Below are positions 24,879 to 36,767 of a stretch of 45,094 nt of DNA, in pieces (position 1 is the stretch's first letter; each line of letters begins with the position of its first letter). The position numbers and the translations under genes were made by a program. Location of the stretch: assembly GCA_902542925.1 (NCBI GenBank), contig CACBWF010000005.1, positions 1 through 45,094 on the forward strand, in the 5' to 3' direction. The notes below the pieces were generated by a model, which saw only the letters and a program-made list of their open reading frames with translations, made no database searches and had not been told where the DNA came from. This stretch comes from an uncultured Alphaproteobacteria bacterium. GTDB lineage: Bacteria > Pseudomonadota > Alphaproteobacteria > Methylaequorales > Methylaequoraceae.

Positions 24879-25595
24879 TTACTTTTTAATAGAAAACTCA
24901 AATTGATTTTTCAGAAAATGTAAAGAGTTTTTAGTGGGTAATCCGGTAATTTGACATGTCCACTTTGGAACGATACCGCCATTGCAGCTCAAATGGTACA
25001 TACCATAATTCCAGGTGTAAATATCACCAGATTTCCAATGAGACAGCACAGAATTTCCTATTTGCAAAAAATGTCCCCAATGCCAATCTTCTAGAAACAG
25101 TAAATATCTTTTGACATTTTCTTTTTTATCGTTAATTTTTTTTGCTTTTTCCGCAACTGCTCTATGAACGTCAAAATGCCAAGGTGTTGCCTGCCCGGGA
25201 TCCTGTTTAAAACAAGCGATAGTTGAGAATCTTAACTTCGTTAATTTTTTTATTTCCATAAATTCATCAGGAAGTTCATCTCTATTATCAATCCATTGAG
25301 TATATTGTGAATTGTGTTTTGTATACCATTTCCTAAAAAAATCAATTTTCTGAGCAGCAATGGTATATGGATCTAATTGATTAGGAATTTTTTTTCCATT
25401 TTTAAAATCCTCTGGGTAAATTTCGCAGCTGTGTTCCGAGCCTTTATTTGACAGTTTTTTTTTTATTTTAGAAAAATCAAGGTCAATTATTCTACCTACA
25501 TATTGGCAATCAGTTGATTGTACAGATGGATCATAATGCCAATCACCCAAACTTTTTTTATACTCTAAAACACTTTTAAAAACTTTATTTTTCAT
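24879..25595 (-). CDS. 2-oxoglutarate/Fe(II) oxygenase-like protein (Asp/Asn hydroxylase type)
   Basis: The 238-residue protein has the facial triad in TPWHFDVHR (His140, Asp142) and GMYHLSCNGG (His201). WKSGDIYTWN just before the last His and WTCQITG after it resemble the end of the aspartyl/asparaginyl beta-hydroxylase and related folds. It probably uses Fe(II) and 2-oxoglutarate to hydroxylate a small molecule or a residue. Its start overlaps the upstream PLP-enzyme gene by 11 bases, so the two products are likely made together. It is a different subfamily from the oxygenase-like gene at 22.4 kb. Confidence 0.75.
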   Translation of the reverse strand: MKNKVFKSVLEYKKSLGDWHYDPSVQSTDCQYVGRIIDLDFSKIKKKLSNKGSEHSCEIYPEDFKNGKKIPNQLDPYTIAAQKIDFFRKWYTKHNSQYTQWIDNRDELPDEFMEIKKLTKLRFSTIACFKQDPGQATPWHFDVHRAVAEKAKKINDKKENVKRYLLFLEDWHWGHFLQIGNSVLSHWKSGDIYTWNYGMYHLSCNGGIVPKWTCQITGLPTKNSLHFLKNQFEFSIKK

Positions 25596-26469
25596 TATAT
25601 CTCATATCTCCTAATAGTTCTGATATACATACTCTTCTCCATCTGCTTCCCCTATCAAAATCTCCAAATCGTTTGTGATTTTTATCCGTTATACCATAAA
25701 TTACGCAATCACTGGGTTCAATATTTAAATTTTTACAAATTTGCAACTGTTTTTTTCTATATTTATTATGATTATAGTCAGGAGAAAAATTTTTACAAAT
25801 TTCATACCCAATTCCTGCCGATATTTTTGGCAACATCTCCATGGAATTAATGACATCAAGTGGATCGTCTGAAAATTCTTTTTTACATCTTAAACCAATC
25901 CTTAGTCTATGAGTTCCATAAAAGGCCTTACTCATACTAAAACACAACTCTTTGATACAATTAAAATTTAAGTTAAAGTTTAAATTTCTGCAAATTGAGT
26001 AATAGGCACAATCAATTAAGACAGGAACATTTAATTTCTCACAAGTTTTTAAAACAATAATTGTTTCCGGATGTTCAGACCCAAAATCACTGAAAGGTAA
26101 GGATATTATAACTGCATCTTCCTCTCTTATTTCATCTTCTTCTAAAAATTTCCAATTTTTGTAATTATTCCTCCATGATAACTGATGATAGAGAAAATCT
26201 CCTTTGAAACAGCGCATTCTGCAATTTTTGTAAGATGCAAAAAAAAAATCAAAACTTTGACTGGTTCCAGATGAAAAACTCAATTGGTTAAAATCTTCTA
26301 TGCCTTTTAGGTTATTTAAAGTACTTGATTTAATCCATTCAAAATAGGTTGTAACAAATTTTTTTACAATTTCAGAATCATAAAGATATTTATCATTAAT
26401 TTTATTTTTGATAAAATCATGAATTTCAGAATTTGGTACGCCTAAATTTTTTCTTCCGTCAAAGTCCAT
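25585..26469 (-). CDS. fold-type I PLP-dependent enzyme, short aminotransferase-like
   Basis: Three landmarks of the aminotransferase fold are visible: FSSGTSQSFDFF (residues 65-76) as the phosphate-binding turn, PVLIDCAYYS with Asp153 and Tyr156 to hold the cofactor, and FSMSKAFYGTHRLRIGL with the Schiff-base Lys181 followed by the usual Arg. At 294 residues it is about 80-100 shorter than class I/II aminotransferases, and the normal C-terminal small domain is much reduced, although GSRWRRVCIS could provide the substrate-carboxylate Arg. It may be an aminotransferase, a lyase or a decarboxylase. Overlap with the oxygenase gene suggests a joint pathway. Confidence 0.72.
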   Translation of the reverse strand: MDFDGRKNLGVPNSEIHDFIKNKINDKYLYDSEIVKKFVTTYFEWIKSSTLNNLKGIEDFNQLSFSSGTSQSFDFFFASYKNCRMRCFKGDFLYHQLSWRNNYKNWKFLEEDEIREEDAVIISLPFSDFGSEHPETIIVLKTCEKLNVPVLIDCAYYSICRNLNFNLNFNCIKELCFSMSKAFYGTHRLRIGLRCKKEFSDDPLDVINSMEMLPKISAGIGYEICKNFSPDYNHNKYRKKQLQICKNLNIEPSDCVIYGITDKNHKRFGDFDRGSRWRRVCISELLGDMRYNEK

Positions 26470-30998: not shown

Positions 30999-31757
30999 TT
31001 GGATCAACAATTGACAAAAAAAATAAAATTGGTGAAAAAATTTGATGCTGGTGAAGGCATAAATGTTAAGAATGCCTCATGGACTTTCGGAGAAAACACA
31101 CCTAAGAACTTTTCGGAACATGTAAAACGCTCAGTGCCGTTCTATGATGAGGGTCATGAATTAATATTACAAATAAGTGATTTCTTTGTAAAAGAAAATT
31201 CAGTCTGTTACGAATTGGGTGTTGCGACTGGAAAGTTAATTAATAAGTTAGCAAAGCGCCATAAAAAGAGTACGAAATGGATTGGGATTGATAAAGAAAT
31301 TGGAATGATTAAACAGGCAAAAAAAGAAATAGACTCAGAATTTTTAAAAAGTAAGACTGTAGCCTTAGTTGAAGACGACCTAGTTTTTTTTCCTTACGAA
31401 AAATCTGATTTAATGATTTCTTACTATACGGTTCAATTTATACAACCAAAATATAGACAAGAAATGCTGAATATGATCTTTAGGAATCTAAATTGGGGTG
31501 GGGCCTTTTTGCTTTTTGAAAAAGTTCGAGCACCTGATGCACGATTTCAAGACATTACTACTTCTCTCTATAATGAATATAAGCTAAGCCAAGGATATAA
31601 ACCAGATGAGATAATTGCTAAATCAAGGAGTTTAAAGGGTATATTGGAACCTTTTTCCTCTTCAGCAAATAAAGATCTTCTAAAAAGAGCAGGATTCAAA
31701 GATATAATTACTGTATTTAAGTGGATTTGTTTTGAAGGTTACTTATGCATCAAATGA
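30999..31757 (+). CDS. CmoA-like (carboxy-SAM synthase-related) methyltransferase-fold protein
   Basis: The 252-residue product resembles E. coli CmoA by eye along its whole length. HVKRSVPFY precedes the SAM loop CYELGVATGK (residues 70-79), then IGIDKEIGMI, YTVQFIQPKYRQEML, and the late IIAKSRSLKGIL. In CmoA an Arg at the last motif (R199, from memory) binds the carboxylate of prephenate and carboxy-SAM; R210 here aligns with it. CmoA makes carboxy-S-adenosylmethionine, normally for tRNA wobble modification with CmoB, which is not nearby. The frame has a stop at 30993-30995 and no ATG until far downstream, so initiation must be at TTG 30999 or another weak codon. It is 6 bases before a second methyltransferase gene. 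Confidence 0.72.
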   Translation: MDQQLTKKIKLVKKFDAGEGINVKNASWTFGENTPKNFSEHVKRSVPFYDEGHELILQISDFFVKENSVCYELGVATGKLINKLAKRHKKSTKWIGIDKEIGMIKQAKKEIDSEFLKSKTVALVEDDLVFFPYEKSDLMISYYTVQFIQPKYRQEMLNMIFRNLNWGGAFLLFEKVRAPDARFQDITTSLYNEYKLSQGYKPDEIIAKSRSLKGILEPFSSSANKDLLKRAGFKDIITVFKWICFEGYLCIK

Positions 31758-31763
31758 GAATTT

Positions 31764-32690
31764 ATGGAAGATTACATTAAAGATTATCTTAATCATATAA
31801 GTATGGATCAAAAAAAGTATTTTTCAGAATTTATAAGATGCGAAGTCTGTGAAAGTGAAGATCATAAAATCGTTAGAGAAATTGTTTCTATTAGTAGAGG
31901 AAATTATGGGAAACTGCCAGTGGTTTCTTGCAAGAAGTGTGGGTTCCTGTTTCAGAACCCAAGATTAAATGAACAATTTTATGAAGATTATTATAAAAAA
32001 AACTATAGAAATTTGCTTTTTAAGAGAAACGATCCCTCAAAAGATTTTATTAATGATCAGTTGTTAAGAGGTAAAAAGTTATTTGAATTTATTAGAGAAT
32101 TTATTCCAAAAAAAGGAAAAATACTGGATGTTGGTTGCTCAGTTGGATGTATGCTTATTCCATTTATTAAGTACGGATGGGAAGCTTTTGGTACAGATCT
32201 TGACACTGATTATGTAAAATATGGCAAAGAAAGACTTGGGCTGCCATTAGAAGATGTAAAGGCTGAAAATATGATTCTTGAAGAAAACAGTTATGACTTA
32301 ATTATAATTATGGGATCACTTGAACATATATATGATCCGAACAAAACACTTGAAATATGTAAAAAGGCAGCAAAGGATAACTCTCTAATTATTCTTGAAG
32401 GAAGAGGCGAACCTCAGTCACATACTCGAGATTATTTTAATCAAAATCATCACAGATACTTTTCATTAGTTTCTATTGAGTTAATGATGATGAAGCATGG
32501 CTGGAAGCCTTTCTTGACAACTGATGCAATGATACATGGTCCTACAAGGCCTGGGGCTTTTACAAGTGTGGGGAAATTAGAAAAACAATTTAAGAAAGAG
32601 GATTTTAAGAAGATCTTAAAAAATCATAAAGAAAATTATAAAGAAGTTATAAAAAAATTGGACAATCATGATAGAAAATTTGAGTTATAG
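31764..32690 (+). CDS. zinc-ribbon class I SAM methyltransferase
   Basis: The 308-residue protein begins with a probable zinc site made of two CxxC pairs (C26/C29 in RCEVCES and C56/C59 in SCKKCGFLF), followed by NPRLNEQFYEDYY. The SAM motif ILDVGCSVGCM lies at about 120-130, with GSLEHIYDPNKTLE as motif IV. This is the build of the methyltransf_13/23-type C- and O-methyltransferases of deoxysugar clusters, although it lacks their long C-terminal domain. It lies 6 bases after the CmoA-like gene, so both are surely co-expressed. It may therefore use the neighbour's product as group donor, which is a hypothesis. Confidence 0.78.
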   Translation: MEDYIKDYLNHISMDQKKYFSEFIRCEVCESEDHKIVREIVSISRGNYGKLPVVSCKKCGFLFQNPRLNEQFYEDYYKKNYRNLLFKRNDPSKDFINDQLLRGKKLFEFIREFIPKKGKILDVGCSVGCMLIPFIKYGWEAFGTDLDTDYVKYGKERLGLPLEDVKAENMILEENSYDLIIIMGSLEHIYDPNKTLEICKKAAKDNSLIILEGRGEPQSHTRDYFNQNHHRYFSLVSIELMMMKHGWKPFLTTDAMIHGPTRPGAFTSVGKLEKQFKKEDFKKILKNHKENYKEVIKKLDNHDRKFEL

Positions 32691-32704: not shown

Positions 32705-33100
32705 ATGCAAAATTATTTATTTAAATTCATTTTTATCCTATTGATAATTTTATTAAGACAACACAGTCTTGATGCCAAGAGATATGAGCTAAAAAAGTTT
32801 GTTTGTGCCGATCAGCTTGGACCTAGAGTTGAATTTACACTCCCAAATTTCAGTAATAATAATAAGAAAACTCTTTTTAAAATTTTTGACAATGAAAGAA
32901 GAGAATTATCTTATGAACAATTTAGTGAATTAAAGAAAGTTAAAAGTATTATAGATGATTCATATTTTTTCTATGTTGCAGAAATAGCTCTAAGTCAAAA
33001 TGGTGATGATAAAATCTATTTTGAATTCTTCCCTCCCTCAACAATGATGATAAAAGTAAATCAATCGCAGTTCAAAAATCTGGCTTGCTGGACAATTTGA
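32705..33100 (+). CDS. small secreted protein of unknown function
   Basis: The 131-residue product has an N-terminal hydrophobic stretch (about residues 6-18) followed by HSLDAKRY, which looks like a signal peptide with cleavage near Ala24. Mature protein contains two cysteines (C34 and C128) that could form a disulfide bond, and is rich in Phe, Lys and Asn. No family is recognised. It begins 14 bases after the zinc-ribbon methyltransferase gene and precedes asnB, on the same strand, so it may be part of the same transcript. Confidence 0.55.
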   Translation: MQNYLFKFIFILLIILLRQHSLDAKRYELKKFVCADQLGPRVEFTLPNFSNNNKKTLFKIFDNERRELSYEQFSELKKVKSIIDDSYFFYVAEIALSQNGDDKIYFEFFPPSTMMIKVNQSQFKNLACWTI

Positions 33101-33207: not shown

Positions 33208-35064
33208 ATGTGCGGATTTTTTGGAATAGTCTCGTCATCAGAAAATATTCTTTCCTATTCAAGTCAAATTAAATCGGCTTTAAATTCTATTAATCATAGA
33301 GGGCCGGACCAAAAAGATTTTTTCTTTGGAAAAAAATTCGCTATTGGTTGCGTAAGATTGTCTATTATTGATTTATCAATCCAGGGAAACCAACCAATGG
33401 TAGCAAAAAATGAAGGGATTGTTTTGGGATTCAATGGTGAAATTTATAATTACAAGGAAATAAGGAGAGCTTTAGTTTCTAGAGGATATAAATTTTCAGG
33501 ATTTTCTGATACTGAGGTTCTTAAGAATTCTTTTCTTGAATGGGGGAATAATTGTGTAAATTATTTGCGAGGAATGTTTTCATTTATTATATGGAATGAA
33601 AAAAAAAAAGAACTTTCTGCTTTTGTTGATAGATTTGGTATTAAACCATTATTCTATATTAAATATAATAATCTTTTAATTCTATCATCTGAAATTAAAG
33701 CTATACTAGCGTTTCTTCCAGATGAGAAGAAAATAAATGAAAAAAGTATTTTTAAATTTATTTCGAGGGGATGGGCAGATACTAACGAAGAAACTTTCTT
33801 TAAAAATATTAAAAGACTCCCCGCTTCCTCATTGTTAAACTTCTCTTTAAATCAGATTAAAGTAAAAAAATATTGGAAATTAAAATTTGAAAAAACAATT
33901 AATTTTGACAAAAAGAATTTTAGTAAAATCTTCAAAGAAAATATTTCTTTACATTTGAATTCAGATGTTCCTATTGCGACAACACTCTCGGGAGGTCTTG
34001 ACTCTTCATCAATAACATCAATATCATCTGATTTACTTGGCAAAAGTAAATCACCTCATGCTTTTAGTATCATACCACCCCACACAGTGGATGAAAGTAA
34101 ACTGATAAATGAGATGATTAGAAATCTAAATATAGAGCATACATATTGTAATCTTTCAGAAGTTAATATAGTTAAAACTTTTGATCAGGTAATTCTGGCG
34201 CATGACGAACCATTTCTTTCGTCATGTGCATTTTATCAATATATATTAAGAAAACTAATTTCTGAGCTCGGTTACAAAGTTCTCTTAGTTGGTGAAGGTG
34301 GGGACGAGCTACTTGGAGGGTACAGAAGAATGATTTATCCATATTTATACTCACTAAAACAAGAAGGGAAAAATAGTATAATAAATTCAACACTAGATAA
34401 ATTGGAATCTTTCCTAGGTATTCCAAAAAAAGATGCAATTATTAATTTTTCTAATTATTCTAGAATGATTGAAGTAGGAGAAAGTGGTCAAGAAAATATT
34501 GAAGCCTATTCATACTTAGATGATAGTTTTTTAAAAAAATATCATGCTTTACTTAAAGCACCAAGCTATCCAATAAAAAAAGGTCGAAAAGAAAATAGGT
34601 TTTTATCACACTTGATTTATCATATATTTGATAGAGACATTCCATACACACTCAGGACCGAAGATAGAAATTCAATGGCACATAGTTTAGAAAGTAGAGT
34701 CCCGTTTTTAGACCATGTTTTTGCTCAGTTTGTTTTTAATCATAATTTTGTTGAATTTATGTATGAAGGAATCAATAAGTCAATGCTACGTAGAAGTATG
34801 CTTGGGAATTTACCTAATTTGATTTTAAAAAATAAAAAAAAATACGGGAGACCAGGAAATAATTCTTATTTTGTGTATGAATTATTATGTGAAAAAATAA
34901 TACGTATGATTGATTCAGATATTTTTGACGATTTTAACTGGTTCAAGAGAAATAATCTAAAATCAAGGTTTTTAATGGATAAAGATGCTTTTAATGAAAA
35001 AAGTTCATCATTCTGGTTTAGATATTATGTTCTAGGAAGATGGATAGCCCTTAAAATCGCATAA
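33208..35064 (+). CDS. asnB: glutamine-dependent asparagine synthetase family protein
   Basis: The 618-residue enzyme starts with MCGFFGIVS, so that after removal of Met the catalytic Cys2 of the class II glutaminase is exposed. This fixes the start at 33208, which also has a GGTGG ribosome site 4 bases upstream, rather than an upstream TTG at 33115. NHRGPDQ and FNGEIYNY follow in the glutaminase domain. The synthetase domain has TLSGGLDSSS with the pyrophosphate loop at 261-267 and GEGGDELLGGY. Family members amidate aspartate, or in polysaccharide clusters amidate uronic acids. It is followed 17 bases later by the sulfotransferase gene, and its context favours sugar amidation over amino acid synthesis. 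Confidence 0.9.
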   Translation: MCGFFGIVSSSENILSYSSQIKSALNSINHRGPDQKDFFFGKKFAIGCVRLSIIDLSIQGNQPMVAKNEGIVLGFNGEIYNYKEIRRALVSRGYKFSGFSDTEVLKNSFLEWGNNCVNYLRGMFSFIIWNEKKKELSAFVDRFGIKPLFYIKYNNLLILSSEIKAILAFLPDEKKINEKSIFKFISRGWADTNEETFFKNIKRLPASSLLNFSLNQIKVKKYWKLKFEKTINFDKKNFSKIFKENISLHLNSDVPIATTLSGGLDSSSITSISSDLLGKSKSPHAFSIIPPHTVDESKLINEMIRNLNIEHTYCNLSEVNIVKTFDQVILAHDEPFLSSCAFYQYILRKLISELGYKVLLVGEGGDELLGGYRRMIYPYLYSLKQEGKNSIINSTLDKLESFLGIPKKDAIINFSNYSRMIEVGESGQENIEAYSYLDDSFLKKYHALLKAPSYPIKKGRKENRFLSHLIYHIFDRDIPYTLRTEDRNSMAHSLESRVPFLDHVFAQFVFNHNFVEFMYEGINKSMLRRSMLGNLPNLILKNKKKYGRPGNNSYFVYELLCEKIIRMIDSDIFDDFNWFKRNNLKSRFLMDKDAFNEKSSSFWFRYYVLGRWIALKIA

Positions 35065-35081: not shown

Positions 35082-36767
35082 ATGAGAAATAAAATTTTAA
35101 ATAAATTAGAGAATCTAGTTTTGAAGAAAAACTATTCAAAAGCAAATATGATTGTAAAAAGGAATTCATCTGATTCTATTGTATTAGTTTATTACTTAGA
35201 CTTATTATTTAAAAATAAAAATTATAAGTCTGTCATATCAACTTATCTAAATTTTTGTAGAAGAATAAACAATGAGCATGCAATAAAAATTTTTTCTCTA
35301 AGTCTTATTGAAACGAACAATTTTGATAAGGCTTTAATTTATTTAAAAAAGTTAGTATCTATTAATGCTAGTTCAGATAATTTAAGTCTTCTCGCGATAG
35401 CTTATTCAAAAAATCATCTGAAAATGGAAGCAATTGATAACTTTGAAAAGTCAATAAAATTTGCTGATTCAAATTCGATTACTTATATTAATTATGCAAA
35501 TTTTTTAAGAGAAGAAGATAAAAATAAACAGGCCATTAAAATTCTTTTAGGATGTAACGAATATTTCAATAATTTAAATATTTTAACTATAATAACCGGG
35601 ATTTATAGAGATCTGCAAGATTATGATAATGCGCTAAAGTTTTGTAAAAGGGCTATCAATATTAGCAAGAATAATATAAATTTACTTTTAATATTAGGGA
35701 CTATTTTACTTGAAAAAGGTGAATCCACTGAAGCCTTAAAAACTTTTAAAAAAATTCTTGATATTAGACCTTTCTTTGGTCCAGCTTATAGACTAATTAG
35801 TTTAATGAAAACACCAATAAATGACTTGGAATTAGATAGAATGATTACCTTTTTAAATAATTCAAATCATGAAGAAATAGATATTATACATTTAGGTTTA
35901 GCTATTTCAAATATCTTAGAATTTCAACAAAAATATAATGAAAGTTTTTCTTTTCTTGAAAAATTTAATTCAAAATTTAGAGATAAAATAGAATATAATT
36001 TTGAATCTTATGAAACAAAATTTGAAAGAATTAAAAACATATTTAAAAAACTAAGTATCAATACAAAAAAAAATGACACACTCAAGCCAATTTTTATTTT
36101 AGGCTTGCCACGCTCTGGTACTTCTTTAATTGAGCAAGTTCTCTCGAGTCATAAAAAAATTTTTCCATGCGGTGAACTTCCATATTTTGAAAAAGTGATG
36201 AAAAAATCTATTGAATGTGAACAGGATTCTATTGAATCTTCTGATTCTCTTTCTAAAGATTATTTAAATAAAATAAAGTTAAATTTTGAAATAAACTGCG
36301 ATTTTCATACTGATAAAATGCCCCTAAATTTTTTATATATTGGAATAATCAATAAAGTCTTCCCAGATTCAAAAGTTCTTCTTTGTACAAGAAATTTAAT
36401 GGACAACATGTGTTCAATATTTAGAAATTTTTTTTCTACTGGTAATCAATTTTCTTATAAATTAGAAGATATAAAAAAATTTATAGAATTATATAAAAGT
36501 GTAATTTCCTATTGGAAGAATGAAAAGACTAATTTCTATGAAATCAAATACGAAAAACTAGTTTTAGATTTTGAAAAAGAAGTACAACAAATATTCAATT
36601 TTATAAATTTAGATTTTGATAATGAATGTCTTGACTTTCATAAAAACAAAAGAATCGTTCAGACAGCAAGTCTAATTCAGGTTAAACAACCACTATTTAA
36701 ATCCTCACTTAATCAATGGAAAAATTATGAAGAAAGGTTTGTTAAAAATTGGATAAATGAATTTTAA
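35082..36767 (+). CDS. TPR-repeat sulfotransferase
   Basis: The 561-residue protein has two parts. About residues 30-260 form helical TPR-like repeats (for example DYDNALKFCKRAINI, STEALKTFKKILDI). From about 335 a sulfotransferase domain follows: FILGLPRSGTSLIEQVLSSH as the 5'-phosphosulfate loop, HTDKMPLNFLYIG, and KVLLCTRNLMDNMCSIF as the 3'-phosphate site, with QTASLIQVKQPLFKSS toward the C-terminus. It would move sulfate from PAPS to a glycan or peptide, the TPR part holding the acceptor or partner. It lacks a signal peptide. No PAPS-forming genes are in the window. Confidence 0.88.
   Translation: MRNKILNKLENLVLKKNYSKANMIVKRNSSDSIVLVYYLDLLFKNKNYKSVISTYLNFCRRINNEHAIKIFSLSLIETNNFDKALIYLKKLVSINASSDNLSLLAIAYSKNHLKMEAIDNFEKSIKFADSNSITYINYANFLREEDKNKQAIKILLGCNEYFNNLNILTIITGIYRDLQDYDNALKFCKRAINISKNNINLLLILGTILLEKGESTEALKTFKKILDIRPFFGPAYRLISLMKTPINDLELDRMITFLNNSNHEEIDIIHLGLAISNILEFQQKYNESFSFLEKFNSKFRDKIEYNFESYETKFERIKNIFKKLSINTKKNDTLKPIFILGLPRSGTSLIEQVLSSHKKIFPCGELPYFEKVMKKSIECEQDSIESSDSLSKDYLNKIKLNFEINCDFHTDKMPLNFLYIGIINKVFPDSKVLLCTRNLMDNMCSIFRNFFSTGNQFSYKLEDIKKFIELYKSVISYWKNEKTNFYEIKYEKLVLDFEKEVQQIFNFINLDFDNECLDFHKNKRIVQTASLIQVKQPLFKSSLNQWKNYEERFVKNWINEF

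Follow-up and report, generated by a model that had tools for sequence, protein, structure and literature searches.

The window analyzed here is the whole of a 45,094-nucleotide stretch of DNA from an uncultured alphaproteobacterium (contig CACBWF010000005.1). Two adjacent genes on its forward strand are the subject of this report. The first (30999..31757) encodes a CmoA-like protein, probably a synthase of carboxy-SAM (Cx-SAM), the carboxyl-carrying form of the usual methyl donor SAM that was first known from tRNA. Read from a TTG codon at 30999 this protein is 252 amino acids long. The TTG start is doubtful; an alternative start, GTG at 31032, gives 241 amino acids and agrees better with the starts of relatives. 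The second gene (31764..32690) begins 6 nt past the stop codon of the first, and encodes a 308-amino-acid class I methyltransferase (MT) of the Methyltransf_23 type (Pfam PF13489, 2.2e-12), for which we propose the role of carboxymethyltransferase. It carries class I SAM-fold motifs and an N-terminal zinc ribbon, C26xxC29 … C56xxC59 (31839..31940), whose cysteines are invariant in the related MTs that were aligned. The six-base spacing and the two CxxC pairs had both been noticed in a preliminary description of this DNA, and both hold.

Further genes follow on the same strand. A small protein of 131 amino acids with a hydrophobic N-terminus (32705..33100), for which no family was found, is probably encoded on the same transcript. 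After it come a glutamine-dependent, asparagine-synthase-like (AsnB-like) amidotransferase (33208..35064; 618 amino acids from MCGFFG; PF00733 and PF13537) and, next in the gene run and part of its glycan setting, a TPR-sulfotransferase (35082..36767; PF13469, 2.5e-30). On the opposite strand, beside glycan genes, two overlapping genes (24879-26469) encode proteins of 238 and 294 amino acids without a match in Pfam; the second of these, the 294-amino-acid protein, has a weak likeness to an aminotransferase.

The CmoA-like protein matches the profile TIGR00740 over its whole length (137 bits, E 7.7e-40), and the next-best family other than CmoA in the same search reaches 29 bits. CmoA is thus the best family by more than 100 bits, which counts in favor of Cx-SAM synthesis, although TIGR00740 is an equivalog whose curated cut-off of 193.3 bits lies above the score of about 137 found here. 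A sequence search of the PDB returned E. coli CmoA as its top match (4gek, E 1.1e-27), and the best solved relatives are all CmoAs (4gek, 4iwn and 1im8). An AlphaFold2 model built from a 28-row alignment (pLDDT 88) again has 4gek as its top fold match in the PDB, with a TM score of 0.88 by target length. Close behind come two methyltransferases whose structures were determined with SAM or SAH, CysG(N-16) and BelI, and because these match nearly equally well, fold alone cannot separate Cx-SAM synthases from SAM methyltransferases. Two residues of E. coli CmoA, Tyr39, a cofactor contact, and Glu164, a highly conserved residue of the active site (PMC3663124), are kept in the alignment as Y49 and E174. 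The protein is a remote CmoA, and the likeness along its full length that had earlier been judged by eye is borne out by profile, sequence and fold alike.

The residue that holds the carboxylate is another matter. The preliminary description had placed R210 (codon 31626..31628) where E. coli CmoA has its carboxylate-binding Arg199. In our alignments Arg199 pairs instead with S209 (31623..31625), and R210 pairs with Ser200; among close relatives the R210 position is occupied by R, A, L, E, K or Q. Being both misaligned with Arg199 and variable, R210 was dropped as a candidate. Four residues beyond the Arg199 place, or one helical turn, lies K213 (31635..31637), which aligns with E. coli Glu203. 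Positions 39, 132, 164, 199 and 203 were confirmed on E. coli MG1655 CmoA, which also served for the final tree and for a tally of viral CmoAs. The tree of 56 CmoA-type proteins places the window protein in a clade of its own (17 rows, support 100/100), separate from the Arg199 type (100/100), and an AU test rejects a tree in which it is forced to group with the latter, i.e. with E. coli and alphaproteobacterial CmoAs (p-AU 0.0017). Throughout the window clade position 203 is Lys or Arg.

K213 matters because a proven synthase has the same pattern. The CmoA of Synechococcus phage S-B43 makes Cx-SAM with a kcat of 2.33 per second, about ten times the 0.23 of E. coli CmoA (PMC12783734), and in our alignment its residues at 199 and 203 are Glu and Arg; it is identical over 231 residues to the CmoA of phage S-B05. 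All of the 80 viral CmoAs tallied have Lys or Arg at 203 and just one has Arg199; a C5-methyltransferase is also found on 73 of their contigs. The E. coli and alphaproteobacterial Arg199 type is the mirror image of this, with Arg199 and Glu203. One viral protein (on IMG/VR contig L068) carries both Arg199 and Lys203, and is a possible intermediate between the two patterns. We infer from these alignments that K213 may have taken over the carboxylate-holding role of Arg199. Such a swap from 199 to 203 would amount to a rule for reading sequences, since many proteins without Arg199 would otherwise be dismissed as plain methyltransferases. With a CmoA fold, equivalents of Tyr39 and Glu164 and a basic residue at 203, the window protein has the features of a carboxy-SAM synthase in the broad sense, and we consider it quite probable that it makes Cx-SAM.

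The MT is less easily read. It was considered as a CmoB, the transferase that normally partners CmoA, and rejected: the alignment covers no more than the generic class I core, Tyr200 of CmoB corresponds to E187, and the regions of the other Cx-SAM residues, Lys91 and Arg315, do not align. Two arginines are nevertheless candidates for contact with the carboxylate of Cx-SAM. At the place of R214 (32403..32405) an Arg is present in all three CmoA-linked MTs of the same subtype and Pro in the other five sequences aligned; R231 is likewise present in those three and absent from those five. Both are missing from two CmoA-linked MTs of a second subtype, and the three related sequences may share them simply by descent. 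A single-sequence AlphaFold2 model of the MT (pLDDT 38) was unusable, and no relatives were found in viral contigs. Genome G109, which gives no CmoA-like match, has a distant and unlinked homologue (E 1e-28) within a NeuB cluster, and so the wider MT family likely includes ordinary methyltransferases. That this particular MT uses Cx-SAM is, in our view, moderately well supported.

Among 32 genomes from the family of the window, the MT is strongly matched twice (E 3e-49 and 7e-45; the next is 5e-17), in G003 and G024, and both matches lie directly after a CmoA-like gene, with a gap of 0 and an overlap of 1 base. The surrounding genes otherwise vary, which suggests that the MT and the CmoA-like gene move together. 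Genomes G140 and G286, from two further families, have an MT of a second zinc-ribbon subtype, whose gene overlaps the CmoA-like gene by 4 bases and 1 base, respectively. Elsewhere in the clade the partner is of another kind: an FkbM-type MT overlaps the CmoA-like gene in G063, an FkbM-like MT lies just downstream in G340, and a Methyltransf_25 protein is encoded beside it in a Campylobacterales MAG. Five clade members have no MT directly adjoining (G014, G167, G231, G322 and G468), and a 453-amino-acid gene that follows the one in G028 has no match in Pfam or the PDB. In G140 (L063, 6100-9706) the CmoA-like gene sits between two MT genes, overlapping both, shortly after NeuB. Very probably, then, the CmoA-like protein and the MT form a functional pair, and the clade as a whole looks like a source of Cx-SAM with interchangeable partners.

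Clade members are scattered among alphaproteobacteria of several families, the Campylobacterales MAG, a Burkholderia plasmid and one viral contig. The last of these, L068 (2036-3825), encodes the CmoA with both basic residues mentioned above, 52% identical to the window protein. Its gene overlaps that of a cytosine C5-methyltransferase that keeps the catalytic Cys98 (SPPC) and the Arg350 of CmoX; in SpCmoX, Arg350 binds the carboxylate of Cx-SAM (PMC12783734). Here, then, a protein closely related to that of the window appears to feed a Cx-SAM enzyme. On the Burkholderia stagnalis plasmid (NZ_CP156687.1; L023, 8075-13935) the clade member, again a 52% identical homologue, lies between a DUF692 gene on one side and, on the other, genes for a radical SAM protein and for an 867-amino-acid protein that ends in an MT domain, and the whole looks like a peptide natural-product cluster that uses Cx-SAM, reminiscent of tgl.

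CmoAs of the Arg199 type also turn up in unexpected company. One from the family of the window (G022; L019, 4259-8394) lies in a NeuB cluster, with an AsnB-like gene and an MT on one side and a CMP-sialate-synthase-like gene on the other; it is an example of a second type of CmoA, distinct from that of the window, that likewise sits among glycan genes. In 12 loci an alphaproteobacterial CmoA of this type is directly followed by a gene of the PEMT/ICMT family, at about 40-90% identity (L155, 4923-6445; L020, 7019-8586; L026, L041, L043-L051). PEMT/ICMT proteins resemble phospholipid and isoprenylcysteine methyltransferases. CmoB was found in none of the 11 genomes tested that have this pair, which is possibly a separate module for carboxymethylation of a lipid or isoprenoid, annotated as tRNA modification.

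The surroundings of the clade in bacteria are repeatedly those of glycan synthesis. NeuB is encoded nearby in G024 and G140, and 20 kb off in the window; glycosyltransferases surround the CmoA-like gene, alone or paired, in G003, G167 and G231, and sulfotransferases in the window and G322; a carbamoyltransferase is present around it in G231 and 17 kb off in the window. The glycan island reported in the preliminary description is thus a recurrent setting, and it makes a sugar the likeliest acceptor.

We propose that the two genes form a carboxymethylation unit, a Cx-SAM synthase with its dedicated carboxymethyltransferase, acting probably on a surface sugar; we regard this proposal as evenly balanced between right and wrong. 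The CmoA-like protein would convert SAM and prephenate to carboxy-SAM, with K213 holding the carboxylate in place of Arg199. Prephenate dehydratase is encoded in 28 of the 32 family genomes, and the co-substrate is therefore to be expected in the lineage; neither this enzyme nor prephenate dehydrogenase was found in the source genome, which is 54% complete. The zinc-ribbon MT would then pass the carboxymethyl group (-CH2-COO-) from carboxy-SAM to a product of the cell-surface glycan genes around the pair, the likeliest acceptors being a sugar or nucleotide-sugar, or a lipid-linked glycan; for this transfer by the MT to a glycan we would put the chances at, or a shade under, even. In a further and speculative step, the AsnB-like enzyme might turn the carboxymethyl group into an amide. 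The identity of the acceptor as a sugar is held less firmly than either the synthesis or the use of Cx-SAM. More broadly, and more tentatively, we suggest that the CmoA clade whose carboxylate residue is shifted by one helical turn is a portable source of carboxy-SAM for unrelated MTs (zinc-ribbon, FkbM and C5-DNA), and that those pairs found in glycan clusters carboxymethylate a surface sugar.

One alternative is that the first protein is just the tRNA CmoA of this genome, serving cmo5U34 together with a distant CmoB. Its best family match is CmoA, after all, and with the source genome so incomplete, failure to find CmoB there, as the preliminary description had also noted for the locus, might be an accident of coverage. 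CmoB is absent from every one of the 32 family genomes, however, five of them at least 90% complete; the CmoA-like gene is present in only a minority of these genomes; and the separate clade and AU test keep the protein apart from E. coli CmoA. It is not, we conclude from the missing CmoB and the tree, the tRNA enzyme, and a tRNA CmoA with an overlooked CmoB was ruled out as exceedingly improbable. A different objection is that the glycan cluster holds two ordinary SAM methyltransferases here, of which the first keeps just the CmoA fold and has lost Cx-SAM synthesis. MTs are common in glycan islands, and the lack of Arg199, the score below the TIGR00740 cut-off and the closeness of CysG(N-16) and BelI by fold all speak for this. 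Against it, every member of the clade has a basic residue at 203, like the phage enzyme shown to make Cx-SAM; one clade member overlaps the gene of a CmoX-type transferase; and it would be hard to explain why a plain MT should lie, time and again, next to another MT of one type or another. We think it unlikely.

It may also be that Cx-SAM is made and used as proposed, but on something other than a sugar: a small molecule, a peptide or a protein, for instance. The peptide natural-product-like cluster around the B. stagnalis homologue and the service of the clade to phage DNA (L068) both lend themselves to this, but the copies in the window, G003, G024, G140 and G231 lie among glycan genes, and we think a non-sugar acceptor unlikely. 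Alternatively the pair could be the first two parts of a three-step path, completed by the AsnB-like enzyme and leading to a carboxamidomethyl group, as is thought for the glutaminase-bearing phage ligases that act on DNA. An AsnB-like gene does follow the MT in the window, past the small ORF, and directly in G003 (L015, 6087-7940), the two proteins being 37% identical, and an AsnB homologue is often found near phage CmoA-CmoX (PMC12783734). Glycan clusters often contain AsnB-like enzymes, however, and the pairs of G024, G140 and G286 have none beside them, so that this longer path seems to us distinctly unlikely. The preliminary suggestion of a carboxymethylation module outside tRNA accordingly survives in part: the enzyme is not that of tRNA, the linkage of CmoA and MT is conserved and the glycan setting recurs, but the argument from Arg210 has to be given up.

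Were the carboxymethylation unit confirmed, carboxy-SAM would serve cell-surface glycans in addition to tRNA, microcin C, 3-thiaglutamate and phage DNA; carboxymethyl sugars would be predicted, and glycobiology would gain a new transfer chemistry. In the largely open-access literature searched, no paper was found that joins Cx-SAM with a glycosyltransferase or with polysaccharide biosynthesis, and on carboxymethyl ethers in O-antigens only unrelated reviews came up.

Among known enzymes, the sugar C-methyltransferases D-mycarose 3-C-methyltransferase and TcaB9, which have zinc-binding N-terminal parts, appear among the profile matches of the MT. What they share with it is the class I domain, and the match is generic: these two enzymes methylate with plain SAM and carry different extra domains. 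E. coli CmoA/CmoB (tRNA cmo5U34) shares with the window pair the CmoA fold, the Tyr39 and Glu164 equivalents and a two-gene layout of synthase and transferase in which the genes overlap or nearly touch. It differs in that the window protein has Ser and Lys in place of Arg199 and Glu203, in that no CmoB occurs in the family of the window, and in that the window MT lacks both Tyr200 and the N-terminal part specific to CmoB.

Carboxymethylation outside tRNA is already known, from phage DNA, 3-thiaglutamate and microcin C (PMC12783734 and PMC10491745), and what is new here is therefore the partner and the setting rather than the principle. TglE/TglF (3-thiaglutamate) and MccS with the C-terminal domain of MccB (microcin C) likewise use Cx-SAM outside tRNA through a dedicated transferase (PMC10491745), but on peptide or nucleotide-peptide substrates, and TglF is CmoB-like; TglE and MccS were compared by description. 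Phage CmoA-CmoX-CmoY (S-B43; PMC12783734) resembles the window in its basic residue at 203, its lack of Arg199, an adjacent group-transfer enzyme and the absence of CmoB. The likeness may extend to an AsnB homologue nearby: the AsnB-like enzymes encoded downstream in the window and in G003 bring CmoY to mind, although G024, G140 and G286 have no such gene next to the pair. The partner in the window is a zinc-ribbon class I MT, in contrast, rather than a DNA C5-methyltransferase with SPPC and Arg350, and its home is a bacterial glycan cluster rather than a phage.
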